A stretch of 64,000 nucleotides of DNA from Escallonia rubra (lineage: Eukaryota; Streptophyta; Magnoliopsida; Escalloniales; Escalloniaceae): positions 248,001-312,000 of the forward strand of contig JAVXUO010002974.1 in assembly GCA_033065855.1 (NCBI GenBank), read 5' to 3'. Position 1 is the first letter of the stretch; every line of letters starts with the position of its first letter. Shown here one piece after another: positions 39,474 to 48,723 of the stretch. The notes under the pieces are model-generated. The model was given only the letters and a program-made list of their open reading frames with translations, made no database searches and was not told the origin of the DNA. The position numbers were made by a program, and so were the translations under genes.

Positions 39474-39730
39474 TTAGACAATGTTTTCTTGAAATTTGGA
39501 GGCAAAACTAGGAAAGGGTGATTCACCGTGAAGCTCACAAACACCAAGCAAGGTATGCCAAACCAGCAAACCTGGTTGGAACGGCATTTCTAAGATTAAT
39601 TCCTCAGCTTCTTTTGTCCGTCCTCGTCGGCCTAGGAGATTTGCCATGCATGCATCTTCTCTGGGATGCATTCCATAAACGTCAGTCATGGAAGAGAAAT
39701 ACTTTTTGGCTTCATCAAGTTGATATTCAA
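39474..39730 (-). pseudogene. PPR gene fragment, C-terminal part, inside the Mutator-like element
   Basis: The minus strand reads DEAKKYFSSMTDVYGMHP, then CMANLLGRRGRTKEAEELI, then EMPFQPGLLVWHTLLGVCEL. This is the end of the last PPR repeats and the start of the E domain of a PLS-class protein. The frame ends within the transposon. It is a captured host fragment rather than a gene. Confidence 0.85.
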
Positions 39731-39798
39731 CTAAAAATCAAACCGAAGTATCAATGCGTAAGTCTGGTACGCGTGTGCAGGATTTTTCGAGAAAGAGC

Positions 39799-42700
39799 TG
39801 TTGTAAATGTTGTGACTAAGATAAGGTAATAATCAAGAAAACAATCTGTTTGTGTGCACATAAATGAAATAAACCTTTAAAGAAAAATGTAAATAATTAC
39901 CTCCATTGGCTAAGTGAACCAAAACTGCATTTACCTCTATGTCTTCTAAAAAGCTGCTGCATTTTTACCAAATGATGTAGCTACTAGAGGTCCAAAGGAT
40001 CCTCTTTGAATACTTTCAAACTTCCATGAAAGGCTTCTATAGTTTCGCCCGTAAGGGTTATTTCTTGGCCAAAATATTGTATAGTGGCACTGGGTTGAGG
40101 CGCGGACTAGGTCGCTCTCTTTAAGACGATTCGCGCCCCTTCGGATATTTACCGGTGCAGTAAGGTACTGACGCGTCGCCTCCAGGATACAACAGCCCAG
40201 TTCAAAACTGTTGCTTCACTCGAATTCTGCACAATCGAGTAAAGCAGAAGCTTCACTCAACACCCTTCTTTGCCCAATCCTTTGCCTCAACAAATAACAT
40301 TGCTATACCATAGTGTCAATGTAATAGAGACACTGCTTCAACAAATTAAAGAAAAAAGATATGGCAATGACAAAAGACAAATTGATATTTGTGTATTGAG
40401 GTGACCTTTTTGTGAAAAGAGAGAAGGCAATAAGCTGCCTTTTAACAAAATAAGACTTGCAGCAAGTGCCTATGTCCATACATCAAACAAAAACTATCAA
40501 CTTTGTATATATAGGGGTTTTAAGTTTGTAACTCATGACCATTTAAGTTTCATTAAAATATAGGTTACAAAAAAGGTCATTAAACTCAATTCAACAGTCG
40601 TTAAATTTTATTGAAATGATAATAAAACAAAAGTTATAATGAGGTGTTATAAACCACCATAAATAGTATAATGAGGCATTTCAACCACAATTATGCACCA
40701 ATAAAAAGATGGTGTTAAACAATAATGTTATAGATACATTTAATCCCCTTTATTTTTTATTTTTTATAAAAGCCCAATTTTGGAGGACACAAAACTAAAC
40801 TATGACTTCAAAAGAAACATTAGTATTTTCATTTTTATTAAAATACTCCAACAATCCCCCACTTATTTTAATAAAAATAGACATGGGCTTATTTGGGCAA
40901 AGATAGAAGATCATGCATCATGAAAGTGGCTCTGCCTTGAAACCTTCACTTAGTGTTTCAGCAATTCCCGTACTAGAGTCAAAGTGGCTCAGCCTTGAAA
41001 CGATGACTACTTGAGGGCACGTGGAATCGCGTCACACATGACATTCCAGGTGTTCTAAACCAAGCTTCTCAAGCCAGCACATTATGGCCATGTGCTTTAT
41101 CCCAGCTTTCATGAGTGCTCTAGAGAATTAGCCCAATTCTCATAGGAAGCGGCCTCACCTCCACACTCATATAGGTGAGTCTATCAAGGATGCTCTCGTA
41201 ACTAATACATCCCACCCGTATGGGCTATAGAACTCATTAAGAGATTAAACCAAATCTGATCCTCCAAAATCGTTACGAGAACATGTGCTTACACCATATG
41301 GAGGGACATTATGTCATAAGACAAGAATAACACATGTATAAAACCAAGTCACTCTATAATTCGTTGGTCTCCTGCCTAGTTCTTGGGATCTCCAGTCCCT
41401 AGGTGGTTGTATCCTTATAGGTGACTTATACAAACTTGGGCTGAAGTCCCATCCCCCTCGATGTATATCAGACATTTGCCTCTAGCTAGAGTTTCATAAT
41501 CTTCATATAATTTTCAACAAAGGCCTGATTGACAGGTGGTCTGCATTACACAAAAATAGTGCAAGATCCAACCAGTTCTTCATTTTTCAGGCAACACTTG
41601 CCTTACCTCAATCATTCACCTCCATCAAATTAAAAGTCCAACTTTTATCGAGGAATACTTTATGATATTGTCCCATGTAACACTCATATTTTCAATCTGG
41701 GACATATATTGAGACCGCCAAGTAATCCATCTTATATGAAAACAACGTCGAAGGCTCTGCCATTAGTCCTTTTAGGAGTCAGTAGCCTTGCTACTAGGAA
41801 TCACAAGCAAGTGACCAGCAGCCTACTACTAGGAACTACGTTTCATCTTGTAGCCATTGATTCTTTACGCAGTGGTAACCATGTCGATGCTAAGGTTCTC
41901 AAAGATATCATGGTGCAAATCACGACACAATTTCCTTTTTTAAGCTTATGAAGCATAAAATCAAATCACCTTGCTGCTTTCGAAAGGAATTAAAAACAAT
42001 TCATTTGAAAGCACTTCACTCTGCTTAGAAACTCATTGAGTTTCAGAAAGTTCACAATAGTTAGATCGAGGTATGACAAAAAACTTTCAACCCTCTTGAA
42101 ATCATTTTTATAGTTCATAAAATGAATTTAAGCTCCAAAAATATATGTAATTTTCTAAATCAGATTTGCACATGATATTTGTAGGGGAGAGGTTATAGCA
42201 ACAGAAGATTATAAAATATTCATCACTGGTATGACTTGGCAGAGAAATGCCTCTTAATTGCACAAGAAAAGAATAAGGCAAAACTCAACATATGAGTGAT
42301 CTTTATTCATGAAAAATACCAGACTAATCCCTTTTCAACTACACATGTATTGCTACAAGAGATGTAATGCATGTTTCATCTCAAGTAACATATGATTATT
42401 AGCCAATAGGCTGCTGCAATGCACGAGGATAGTATAACAGTATTTGGAGAGTTATAGACAGGCATCTCAATTAATTGCATAATTTAGTTATGCTAAGCTG
42501 TAATTGCATCAGCCCACCTATACATGGTGGAATTTATAAAAGCAAGTCACATTATGCCTTTCCAAACATATATAGTAAGTTCATAGCACCAAGATAGATA
42601 GACCCCCACTATTTTGCAATACGGAATCCTTGAGATGCAAGAACATGACAAGTATATATCATGCTATAACTCTTTATATAAAACTCTTACAAGTTCATGC

Positions 42701-43435
42701 TTTCCTTTTACTTCATGTCTGAGCTTATCTGCTGAGGTATAGAACATAAGATTTTGAACCTAACATGCAGCAACAGCATCAGATGCAGGTGAAACCAAAC
42801 AGCAAACATGTTCTTGAAAAATCACCCTCATAAGATCATGAGTTGTGTGGCAAGGGCTTTATCGGTATGTTACAACAAATTAAATTGTTCCAGCAAGCAT
42901 TCTTATCCACAAGAATTTTTTTTTTTTTCTTCTAATCGTCAAAGTCCTTCACAGTGAACAATTGCTATCCCCGCACTAGCTGCATTGTTCTCGTTCAAGT
43001 TTTACTAACTTTTATAAACCCATGCATTTTAAGAAAAAAGAACAACCAAGCACTTATTTCATGCTGTTATTTTTATCACAAATTCTCACAAGCATACATA
43101 GGTTTGAGATTTGCAACATAGGCAATCTCAAGTTGAACTCTTACGTTGAAGTGATAAAAAAATATCACAAGCTTCATACCGGCATAGGTTTATTTATTAG
43201 AGTCTCTGTGCACCGCGTGCCACCATATGTAGACTCCATCCCAAGAGCTTGCATATGCTACCAATGGAGTATGTTAGCCAGTAGCTTCCCTCACATTGTC
43301 ACTAATTTCTTCATGTTCAGTCTTTAACAGAGGATTATACGCTAGTCATGTACGCATGGCAAATTGCAATTTAACTGACAATCTCAAGCATGCAAAATCT
43401 TGATTGTTAACTTGCAGAACTTCTCAAAGAAATAT

Positions 43436-43468
<33 letters not shown>

Positions 43469-45882
43469 TATATACATAAATGTATAAATGCGTGGTTTCT
43501 ACTTATAGAGATTACAAATAGCCACTACCAGCTACCATGACCAGGAAAGCCAAATCACATTTCTTCCTGAATGCAAATCAAGCTAAACGGGGAATGTTAT
43601 TTAGAGGTTACCAAATCAAAGCCCCCACTAGCCCCTTTCTCATTTGTTTATCAGTGTTGTTCTTTAATACTAAAGGCATATGAAACATTCCACCCAAGTT
43701 CATTGCAAGAGCTATACCAACGTAGTAATAGCATGGGAAACCAAGGCATTACACTGCTCTAAAATGACACAGTCTCTAACCTAAGAAATACATGATTATC
43801 GTTCCATTAAATTACTTACAGCCTTGAGTCTAGTTTGACTCCAAATACAAAAGGAACGCCCTTGGTGATAAGTTGAAAAATCCTTATAGCACATGAACTA
43901 GTGTAATCACTGATGCTTTAAATCCACCATATAAAGTGAATCAAGTAAATCACTAGTTAAAATATTCTTCTAATTCTATTCAATCATCTCTCTTAGTCCT
44001 GAAATGGCTAGAAAACAGTTTTATCAGAGATGTGGTAGTATGGCAAGTTCACTGTGTCTTATAGACAATCACAAATCAAGAGTTATGCCAAAAGCAGAAC
44101 ATATAACCAAGAAACATATGCTCCAAATTGATGGTGCGCAAATTTAAAGTAAATTACTGTGATAGTCTATTACGCCCACATATATGTGCTCTTTTAGAAA
44201 ATAAAAGGAGGCCTAGTAATATAATTATGACCAAAACTTAAGTTCCCAGTAAGAGAACACATCAAATATGTATACCATGTCTTCTATTATAAGAAGAATA
44301 TTTGAGCCTAGGCCCAGTTTAAAATTACCCTTATAGTACATAATTTCTAAGAAAACATTAAGCATACATGAACGTATAGACCACATTAATAGTGCATGTA
44401 AACCATTCTGCAACTACGGAGGTAATACATACAAAGACTGCATATCTTTCAATGCTATCAAATTCAGGGGGTATGTTATCCTTTCAAAGCAAACAGAATA
44501 ACAAAGTACTACCTCCCAAAATTAAAGATTTCTTATTTTTAGGTTTCTTAATTTTCTTAGAAATTAATGTTACCTGTACCGTTATATAAACATAACCATT
44601 AACCTCATACCAGAATTGGGTTGTCAGTTCAGCTTCTACTACTTGGGCTGACGAGCACCACATCACTTTCGCAGCTCAAAACTCACGTGATAATGTTGGA
44701 GTCACATACAACCAAAAAGGAAAATGCAATTAGTCGTGCCATTGTCACCTTACAATGCTATCAAAACTTACACAGCAGTGCTAACGAAAGATGAAAAAGG
44801 TGTTCATGTCTAATTGCATTTTACGAATCGTCTTAAAATTGTTGTAAATGTTGTGACTAAGATAAGATAATAATCAAGAAAACAATCTGTTTGTGTGCAC
44901 ATAAATGAAATAAACCTTTAAAGAAAAATGTAAATAATTACCTCCATTGGCTAAGTGAACCAAAACTGCATTTACCTCTATGTCTTCTAAAAAGCTGCTG
45001 CATTTTTACCAAATGATGTAGCTACTAGAGGTCCAAAGGATCCTCTTTGAATACTTTCAAACTTCCATGAAAGGCTTCTATAGTTTCGCCCGTAAGGGTT
45101 ATTTCTTGGCCAAAATATTGTATAGTGGCACTGGGTTGAGGCGCGGACTAGGTCGCTCTCTTTAAGACGATTCGCGCCCCTTCGGATATTTACCGGTGCA
45201 GACGCGTCGCCTCCAGGATACAACAGCCCAGTTCAAAACTGTTGCTTCACTCGAATTCTGCACAATCGAGTAAAGCAGAAGCTTCACTCAACACCCTTCT
45301 TTGCCCAATCCTTTGCCTCAACAAATAACATTGCTATACCATAGTGTCAATGTAATAGAGACACTGCTTCAACAAATTAAAGAAAAAGATATGGCAATGA
45401 CAAAAGACAAATTGATATTTGTGTATTGAGGTGACCTTTTTGTGAAAAGAGAGAAGGCAATAAGCTGCCTTTTAACAAAATAAGACTTGCAGCAAGTGCC
45501 TATGTCAAAAAAAAAAAAAAAAACCACCCACTTTGTATATATAGTGGTTTAAGTTTGTAACTCATGACCATTTAAGTTTCATTAAAATATAGGTTACAAA
45601 AAAGGTCATCAAAATCAATTAAAAAGTCATTAAATTTTATTGAAATGATAATAAAACAAAAGTTATAATGAGGTGTTATAAACCACCATAAATAGTATAA
45701 TGAGGCATTTCAACCACAATTATGCACCAATAAAAAGATGGTGTTAAACAATAATGTTATAGATACATTTAATCCCCTTTATTTTTTATTTTTTATAAAA
45801 GCCCAATTTTGGAGGACACAAAACGAAACTATGACTTCAAAAGAAACATTTGTATTTTCATTTTTATTAAAATACTCCAACA
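39799..45882 (-). mobile_element. Non-autonomous LTR retrotransposon (LARD-like), both LTRs present
   Basis: LTRs at 39799-40853 (1,055 bp) and 44840-45882 (1,043 bp) are direct repeats with TGTTG...CAACA ends. They look about 1-2% diverged by eye, so the insertion is probably about one million years old or less at usual plant rates. A polypurine tract (AAGTGGGGGAT on the minus strand) abuts the 39799-40853 LTR, so that is the 3' LTR and the element runs on the minus strand. A TATA-type box (CTATATATAC) lies in each LTR. The 3,986-bp interior has no gag or pol domain in any frame. Flanking 5-mers AGAGC and GGAGC match at four of five positions. LTR ends resemble Ty1/copia. Structurally it looks whole, but it would depend on proteins from another element. 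Confidence 0.9.
44824..44837 (-). other. Primer-binding position complementary to the element's own LTR
   Basis: Two nucleotides inside the 5' LTR edge, where a primer-binding site belongs, the minus strand reads TTTAAGACGATTCG. It does not start with TGG, as most tRNA-primed sites do. The same 14-mer occurs on the opposite strand inside both LTRs (45161-45174 and 40120-40133), so the element RNA would contain the exact complement within its own LTR-derived leader, in the polarity a primer needs. Confidence 0.6.
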
Positions 45883-46268
45883 GGAGCAGGCGTGGAGCTC
45901 GTTGACGAAGGAGAACTTGTTGGGCTTGGTTCCACTCACGTGCATGCGTCTGAACATAGAGAGAGAGCCTCTACGGGGTGACCCTTTTGGATGAAGCCCA
46001 CAATGACGGCTGTCCACGACACCACGTTCTTGTGAGTCATTTCGTCGAACAGTTTGAGGGCATCTGGAAGATGGCTGCATTTGGCATACATGTTGAGGAG
46101 ATTGTTGCGGAGGTAGAGGGAAGAGAAAAGGGCTTGCTTGACGAGTTTGGCGTGCATGGCTTTGTCGTGCCGCAAGTCGAGAGCTTGAACGAAGGTGCGG
46201 AGAATGCGAGAGGCCTCTTCGACTTGTGCAGCAGAGGCGAACGAGTTGTGTGGTTTAGAGCCGCCATT
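45883..46268 (-). pseudogene. PPR gene fragment, N-terminal part, inside the Mutator-like element
   Basis: The minus strand reads DKAMHAKLVKQALFSSLYLR, NNLLNMYAKCSHLPDALKLF, then DEMTHKNVVSWTAVIVGF and, in a neighbouring frame, FRRMHVSGTKPNKFSFVNEL. These are early repeats of a PLS-class PPR protein. It runs up to the LTR retrotransposon edge; the C-terminal fragment of a similar gene lies beyond that element, in the same orientation and order. Confidence 0.85.
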
Positions 46269-48723
46269 AGAATAATGGCGACGGCAAGTTCTTGCGACTA
46301 ATGTGATATTGTTCTGAGTTGGGATACGAGGTTTGGTGGCACCATCTCTAAGCTACTGCTAGCTTCATTCTCGACGTGAGAGTTACTGCATGTTTACCTC
46401 CTACTCCTAGCAATACATGACTTCTTTGACCTCGTTTGTCTTGGGGTTTGCGGCCTCAGGGAGTTGTATGTTGTGTTTGGGACAAAAGTTCCGGTTAATT
46501 ACAAGTGTCAGGGTCGAACAACTGTTACCCAGATGTTGCAGTCTCCGAAGTTTTCTAACGTCACCAAAAATTGCAAAGTTCCACTGAAAGGGCAGGAACA
46601 GTACAACGTAATTGCGGAAAATGTTTGAACGCTGGCATTGTATATCTTCACAATCTAGTGGGAGCTGCAGATCCAACCATTCTTCACTTTTTTCTGACCA
46701 CGACATTTTTACCTCCTCAAGCTAGGTCTGATGAAGGCAATGGATAAAAGGGCACGGGCAGAAGGTGGAGGAAGGGAAGAAGGGTCTTTGTGGAGTTGGC
46801 TGGAATTTACAAAACTCAACATTACAAGAAGACCACACATGTGTATAAAGAACAAATTGAGGTATTTTGGGTAAGAAATTACATAAAGTAGTGTGTCAGG
46901 GAATCTTGAAACGGAGTTGGGCCTGCCGTTAAAAGTGTTTAGTTGTGTGTAATGTGGGTACAAATCTCAGGGGAACGAAGTGTAATTTTTAAAGATAGCG
47001 GTAGTGGAGTGTAATTACGTAAAACCTCAGGGATGTTTAGTGTAATTTACCCTTTAATAAACGAGCTCTAAAAAGTTGTTCATGTTCGATTTGTATATTA
47101 TACAAACAAACGTGAATGAATTTTTTAGGGAACGAACCACGAGCTGTTTGTGAACAATTCTATTCATTTACAGCCCTAGCCTACAGAGTATCTTTTCAAG
47201 CAATTACAGTCTCTCTGAATCTCAGCACCAACCAACACTTAAGGGATGCCAAAAAACGCCTTGCACATAATATGTATATGTGCGTATACAATAATAGATA
47301 TGTGTGAATATACAGCTTTTCTATTATTTATGGACTTTGCTCATTTCTCATAAGTGTAAAAGTGTATGTCCCTCATTTTTTTCCCCCTAATCCTTCACAT
47401 ATTTCTCCTACATATGTATTAAGAAACCATAGAACACTTGCAAAACATCTAGCCCGCTTCACCAATGATGCAGTGGGGTTTGCATTGCAAAACCAAATGT
47501 ACGCTGCCCATCGAGTTTTTTTCCATTGCCACCGGATCATATTAGTGTTGACGGGGTTAAAGATTCGGCGTTGGGGTGCTATAATGGGACAACTGGTCCG
47601 GTATCACACAACACATTTTACGCACAACAAGTTGTTTCTTGTAGTAAGTTAGTGACACAATGTCACTGAGTATCATGCTCTATGAATTTACAAAGATAGG
47701 TCATTAAATCATTTTATAAGTCACTACAATATATTTGTTCAAGGACATGTTAAGTACATCTGTTTAGCGAGAGAAATCAGGTTTTAGTGACCAAATTTAT
47801 CTCAGCATAACCGATACCCATCTCCGTCTTAACTGTGACTCAAGAGATATTATAATATACCTCTCCATATTATAGTTTTAGGGGGAAAAAAAATTAACAT
47901 TCTCGCGCTATAATAGTTCAAAGTGATATATTTTGGGAGGACAATAATTTTTGAAAATGGAGCGTAGAAGCACATTTTACCTCTTACCTCTTTAATGTAT
48001 TCATGCAAGCCTTGTGTTAGCTTTGCCATAAAAACATTTGTGAAGGTGTTGTTTTGGTCTCTTCCGCAGGGGTGGCCTTATTGAATGTCCCGTCCTTATT
48101 AAGCCCTGCACTGCTGCACACTTGTCGTCCAACATGATTGAAGTTAATGTTTGAACCAAAAAAATGATTGAAGTTAATGTAAGTATCAGTGCCAAACAGA
48201 ATATGCCAATTTCTGTATTTATAATATCCTTACGGGTAAGAATATTGTATGGTCTGTAATCAGTAATCTTAACTGTTTAAAACCGCAAGATATATAACAT
48301 CATTTTCTGTCGTTCTTAACCGTTTTTTTGGTCACATCAGCTCTCTCTCATCCAACGGTCTTAAATTCTCAAAACATGCAATATCGACTCCTTAACAAGA
48401 AACGTGTATGAAAAACTAAAAAGCGATTTTCACACTTGACAATCACGCAAAGGGATTTAAGTTGGTGAGACATGAAGTTTGTAAATTATTCTTAGCAATA
48501 GTTCTTGTCTTGCTTCTAGACTAAATTTTTGTAGAACACTTGCAGTTAAAGAGAGAAAATGAAATGGTACTCCAAGTAAGATGCACCACGAGGAAAACAA
48601 TGAAAGTCATGTACGATGAAACACAAGGACACTGGCACAAAACTTCGGAGGCAAAGAGGAGTTTAGCTCATCATATCACTGGTAGAATTTGCAGGGCAAA
48701 GTTCTTATTATTATAATAAAATA

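Follow-up and report, generated by a model that had tools for sequence, protein, structure and literature searches.

Background

Among the described systems closest to the element considered here, the TAR lineage of plant Ty1/copia long terminal repeat (LTR) retrotransposons, which includes Houba and Osr-1, is predicted to be self-primed (Neumann et al. 2019, PMC6317226), and that survey predicts self-priming for 12% of the plant LTR elements covered. The same source assigns half-transfer RNA (half-tRNA) primers to the copia lineages Osser, Bryco and Bianca. The Tf1/sushi group of Ty3/gypsy (Tf1, Tf2 and Tj1) is self-primed (PMC7175516, PMC10085805 and PMC4600332), and Helenus and Cassandra are non-autonomous and carry small-RNA genes within their LTRs (PMC10886601). 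Here, we describe an LTR retrotransposon of Escallonia rubra whose primer-binding site (PBS) is complementary to its own LTR. It lies on the minus strand of a stretch of 64,000 nucleotides (GenBank assembly GCA_033065855.1, contig JAVXUO010002974.1, positions 248,001 to 312,000), which is referred to as the window and to which all positions below refer.

On the comparisons presented here, the element is probably one of a large Ty1/copia-type group in which part of the element's own LTR RNA serves as primer for minus-strand DNA synthesis, and it looks like a well-supported member of an already known self-primed kind. The original prediction, made from the window alone, regarded such priming as unusual for a plant element; this view has to be given up, since the TAR lineage and the surveyed share of elements cited above had already been predicted to be self-primed (PMC6317226). 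Within this reading, an internal primer borne on a hairpin is of most interest but also the least certain.

Complementarity between the PBS and the LTR in the window

The 5' LTR (44840-45882, minus strand, 1043 bp, TGTTGG...CAACA) and the 3' LTR (39799-40853, minus strand, 1055 bp) share 1025 identical bases among 1043 aligned, with 12 gap columns. The 5' LTR ends at 44840 and is followed by AT (44838-44839, minus strand); AT also precedes the 3' LTR, giving inverted ends ATTGTTG...CAACAAT. As both inner borders read AT, the PBS proper, TTTAAGACGATTCG (44824-44837, minus strand), starts two bases inside, and the LTR complement starts exactly at this base. The site was originally predicted at this distance from the 5' LTR boundary, with copies of the same 14-mer on the opposite strand of both LTRs, and all three coordinates were confirmed: the exact 14-mer is read on the minus strand at 44824-44837 and on the plus strand at 45161-45174 and 40120-40133. 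The proposed primer, CGAATCGTCTTAAA, thus occupies 45161-45174 on the transcribed (minus) strand of the 5' LTR (LTR positions 709-722), where it is supported by complementarity and by the covariation described below, with an exactly matching candidate segment in the 3' LTR (40120-40133, minus strand).

These three sites are the only matches in the window at up to two mismatches, while 0.45 were expected, and three were reached in 2 of 100 shuffles. A 14-nt complement in the 5' LTR was found at 3 of the 3972 internal offsets, namely at the PBS and at two offsets that overlap within one A+T-only stretch (40864-40878); no further internal site of mixed sequence had such a complement. A single element, however, cannot yield odds as small as the one in 100,000 originally given.

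Covariation in related elements of the host genome

Relatives were searched in the same host genome (566 Mb). The exact 14-mer occurs 52 times, compared with 5 times for the reversed pattern, and 50 of the 52 copies lie within related LTRs or PBSs by sequence context (four of these 50 are known only as search rows). The other two, C921:46250 and C2160:502105, are outside recognisable element sequence. Searches for PBS-like junctions returned 60, 347 and 68 places against 8, 30 and 10 for the reversed patterns; the three sets overlap, and a sample of them was retrieved.

The 14/14 match is kept in three copies of the window family (the window, C2098 and C2831). A second family has the same LTR motif as the window family and a matching PBS core, with a variable base 12 (mostly C, also G or T). 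In this family (e.g., L036, L043, L048, L050 and L057), the variable position falls just past the 11-nt matched core and might mark the end of the copied primer.

Altogether, five PBS types (A-E) were distinguished, each accompanied by an LTR carrying the matching complement, which ends at the same base. The types differ in a compensatory manner at PBS positions 1, 7, 9 and 10 and by a compensated one-base indel. In type B, the PBS GACGGT goes with ACCGTC in the LTR; in type C, TTTAAGGCGATA is paired with TATCGCCTTAAA; in type D, the PBS lacks one T and the LTR one A; and in type E, CTTAAGACAGTA is paired with TACTGTCTTAAG in a rather different LTR. Base-pair counts, from which type D (shifted register) and L102 are excluded, were as follows: T-A 35 and C-G 8 at position 1; A-T 35 and G-C 8 at position 7; G-C 28 and A-T 9, with six A-C mismatches, at position 9; and A-T 22 and G-C 16, with G-T 4 and A-C 3, at position 10.

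The original prediction proposed that the two 14-mers should co-vary across related copies, and for the main PBS types they do. In an earlier sample of 20 PBS-like places, the LTR matched at no fewer than 11 of 12 positions in 12 places and at 10 in two. For 20 further places, the expected LTR sequence was written down place by place before retrieval, and in the main types it was found in all nine copies (three each of E1, C1 and D).

A set of 52 elements, in which the LTR motif was placed by its flanks and not by the PBS, was then scored. The PBS and LTR matched at 11/11 positions in 31 elements and at 10/11 in 16. The mean match was 10.27 against 8.05 after shuffling, and for the 24 unique pairs it was 9.54 against 7.48; in both cases, none of 20,000 shuffles was as good. 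By position, 47 of 51 elements match at position 11 and 36, 34, 38, 20 and 7 of 51 at positions 12 to 16. The set leaves out L089, L095, L103, L104, L106-L108, L110 and L128 (no LTR motif in the retrieved stretch, or apparently unrelated), L085, L086, L087 and L091 (LTRs without a PBS), listed places that were never retrieved, and second loci of the same copy. Compensation in several separate columns, together with one indel, is a stronger point than the shuffle odds.

A probable hairpin in the LTR and the proposed priming mechanism

The primer segment can also pair with an arm located upstream in the LTR. In the window, this arm is AGGCGA in the 5' LTR (45207-45212, minus strand), able to pair with TCGTCT of the primer, and its copy in the 3' LTR is at 40176-40181 (minus strand; coordinates from the window sequence). 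The arm varies along with the primer, being AGGCGA in type A, AGGCGG in B, AGGTGA in C and AGGCAG in E. Among 49 of the 52 elements (L098, L123 and L124 were dropped, the L102 motif was placed via its PBS match, and type E arms were read by eye with a one-base shift), all six pairs can form in 41, five in 5 and four in 3. The fifth pair is G-C in 36 elements and A-T in 11, the sixth is A-T in 27 and G-C in 18, and none of 20,000 shuffles paired as well. Because the upstream arm pairs and varies with the primer, the primer segment probably forms the 3' side of a hairpin in the LTR. Predicted duplex energies for nine elements are similar for the two pairings, ranging from -13.3 to -19.8 kcal/mol for primer and PBS and from -14.8 to -20.0 kcal/mol for arm and primer.

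One length difference between the two LTRs of the window also lies in this region: the 5' LTR is without about 10 bases (GTAAGGTACT) that are present in the 3' LTR (45200-45203 versus 40160-40171), and the difference falls in the predicted loop between the hairpin arm and the primer.

A candidate promoter, the TATA-like box TATATATAC, is located at 45535-45543 (minus strand, LTR position 340), and a second TATA-like site is present at LTR position 86 (45797). With the RNA start set 30 nt past the former, the primer motif at LTR position 709 would lie approximately 340 nt inside the RNA, close to the distance of some 300 nt originally predicted; the same calculation gives 205 nt in L060 and 141 nt in L102. 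These starts are guesses, because L060 and L102 carry further TATAAA sites.

The mechanism that we propose would begin with a transcript that carries the primer, as the 3' arm of the hairpin, approximately 140-340 nt downstream of where it is likely to start. A cut just past CUUAAA (CUUAA or CUUAAG in relatives), by a nuclease whose action we infer, would free a 3' end. This end would anneal to the PBS, two bases in from the LTR border, and be extended by reverse transcriptase. The primer might then be copied into the new PBS, in the manner of tRNA ends, which would keep the PBS and LTR matched and would explain why they change together. Whether the primer would act in cis or in trans, and which LTR copy would supply it, are likewise conditional parts of the proposal, and the window copy, in which no enzymes are detectable, would rely on a coding relative. 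The fold-back priming from the element's own LTR RNA suggested by the original prediction is supported by the covariation, with cleavage and priming as its presumed steps. A further-reaching version is a three-strand RNA switch, in which an internally cut hairpin primer moves from the upstream arm to the PBS, all three strands having co-evolved and the PBS being rewritten in each round; we put this forward tentatively, as a possibility somewhat short of even. If true, it would constitute a priming architecture distinct from that of Tf1, perhaps with a separate origin in Ty1/copia.

Several observations weigh against self-priming from the LTR or against its hairpin form. Among rare PBS variants, the predicted LTR sequence was found in only 1 of 11 copies (E2 1/4, C2a 0/2, C2b 0/2, C2c 0/1 and T 0/2), and most differences were uncompensated; the sole success, L117, has the compensating LTR change, and we interpret the failures as decay after insertion. 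The remaining 6 of the 20 PBS-like places sampled earlier have no LTR partner in the retrieved stretch, although some of them look unrelated or rearranged. A PBS without its LTR match had been named at the outset as grounds for rejecting the idea, and PBS-like sites lacking the LTR motif in the retrieved sequence do occur, in these six places. Five of the 52 elements score below 10/11, one of them, L102, at 1/11 because the flank rule misplaced its motif. The shuffles ignore shared ancestry, and the odds derived from them are therefore overstated. The fold is not settled either, as several copies are also predicted to form a second stem around the primer, between GGGGCGCG and CGCGCCTC. Finally, duplexes of the kind that form the Tf1 pretzel, between PBS-adjacent sequence and the LTR, were not detected in nine elements (z from -2.2 to 1.2 relative to shuffles).

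Classification and comparison with described systems

A relative with a type D PBS on contig C115 encodes a copia gag (PF14223, 1.6e-25) and Pol_BBD (5.4e-25) and, further along, a copia reverse transcriptase (PF07727, 7.5e-74); 0.8 kb between the gag and reverse transcriptase stretches and the far (3') LTR are outside the retrieved sequence. Judged by these domains, the coding relative of the window element is Ty1/copia. In the internal region of the window copy (40854-44839, minus strand), tblastn with gag and reverse transcriptase of this relative gave no match at E up to 1. The copy is therefore taken as non-autonomous, and it has the LTRs, PBS and candidate polypurine tract of such elements, with no coding capacity detected.

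A PBS complementary to the element's own LTR, the feature behind the predicted self-priming of TAR, is present here. The TAR lineage and the group described here are both Ty1/copia and lack a primer site for a tRNA 3' end, and in both the primer is proposed to arise by cleavage within the transcript's 5' LTR, whereas the hairpin, the internal primer position and the LTR-PBS covariation were not found in the available description of TAR (PMC6317226). With Tf1/sushi, the element shares the need for a cut and a short primer, here a proposed one, that comes from its own RNA and pairs with the PBS; this primer has 11 nt in Tf1, and the match here extends over at least 11 nt. In Tf1/sushi, however, the primer is the 5' end of the RNA, whereas the motif here would lie approximately 140-340 nt inside, as measured from TATA boxes; pretzel duplexes were not detected, and in place of a Ty3/gypsy chromovirus pol the gene-bearing relatives have copia gag and reverse transcriptase. 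The half-tRNA-primed copia lineages are likewise Ty1/copia, and their site, too, lacks a match to a tRNA 3' end, but here a partial tRNA set gave no match and the site varies with the LTR. Helenus and Cassandra are likewise non-autonomous with a conserved RNA-like LTR block; according to PMC10886601, the tRNA-like part of their LTR shows no complementarity to the PBS, while LTR-PBS complementarity is present here, with no Rfam family at the cut-off.

In the literature searched, mostly without subscription papers, neither a hairpin primer in the LTR nor covariation between LTR and PBS was found described for plant copia elements, and an exact-text search with the five PBS cores gave, among the matches listed, no title on retrotransposons. 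Self-priming of plant copia in this literature, as far as available, rests on sequence prediction. The compensatory differences, including an indel that keeps the register, are a separate line of evidence for selection on the pairing or for its renewal each time the element is copied. Since they specify exactly where the primer ends on its 3' side, and also an RNA hairpin and pairs of natural variants, the mechanism can be tested directly across a large group of plant elements.

Alternative explanations

Could the LTR-PBS pairing serve another purpose, such as dimer formation, packaging, translation control or PBS shielding, with priming by something else? Alternative pairings of similar predicted energy exist, and the conserved GC-rich block of the LTR could have several roles. 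However, in each of the five types, also the one with the compensated indel, the first paired base is exactly at the canonical primer position two bases inside the LTR, and no other primer site was recognised there; we consider this explanation unlikely.

A host RNA, that is, a tRNA fragment, an internal tRNA stretch or another small RNA, could also be the primer, with the LTR match as a by-product, for example, of a captured RNA. Some plant copia lineages are known to use half-tRNA primers (PMC6317226), and two of the 52 exact 14-mers (C921 and C2160) lie outside element context. The genome search listed 63 tRNA matches, of which only 35 loci were read and 34 typed, representing eight amino acids (Lys, Ile, Cys, Asn, Thr, Arg, Gly and Gln). 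Six primer versions compared with the 35 loci shared runs of at most 6-8 nt and matched at best at 8 or 9 of 11 positions, no better than was obtained with 100 shuffled versions of the type A primer. The tRNA search called for by the original prediction has thus yielded no match above shuffles, within the eight amino acids covered. As a positive control, an initiator Met-type PBS pattern was found at 2673 genome sites compared with 1 for its reverse. The five PBS types start with TTT, CTT or TTA and not with the TGG of a site for a tRNA 3' end. Eight Rfam matches were all under the gathering score. Moreover, because each of the five PBS types follows its own LTR, five host RNAs tracking the LTRs would be needed. 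With the 35 tRNA loci covered, a host primer is considered unlikely.

A special case, a truncated tRNA with a modified A58, was suggested by the variable PBS position 12 of the second family (on a T-loop reading) and was dropped: base 12 is outside the core of 11 nt, the PBSs of types B-E go with their own LTRs, all six exact genome hits of the pattern fall in PBSs of related elements, and none of the tRNAs tested gave a match.

A chance match in one element is hardly credible, since, even though the A+T-only stretch of the same element also has 14-nt LTR complements, the match at the PBS recurs in two further copies of the window family and, with compensated differences, in several other families.

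Further features of the element and its relatives

A purine stretch before the 3' LTR, AAGTGGGGG (40856-40864, minus strand), is a candidate polypurine tract. A plasmid collection contained nothing similar to the conserved GC-rich block of the LTR. The element is flanked by GCTCC (45883-45887, minus strand), a candidate target duplication, and on the other side by GCTCT (39794-39798, minus strand), with four of the five bases equal. It interrupts a host gene on the same strand (39474-39737 and 45936-46352), which, from its motif, we take to be a pentatricopeptide-repeat (PPR) gene; joining the flanks across the element restored no single open frame.

In two places, L107 (C915) and L108 (C2679), LTR-like ends CCCAACAAT are followed by TTTCAGAGCG, and no complement was found upstream; these perhaps represent another family with an unknown primer. 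In L079 (C1917), the LTR carries an apparent second primer motif in tandem and lies upstream of a copia gag-like frame.
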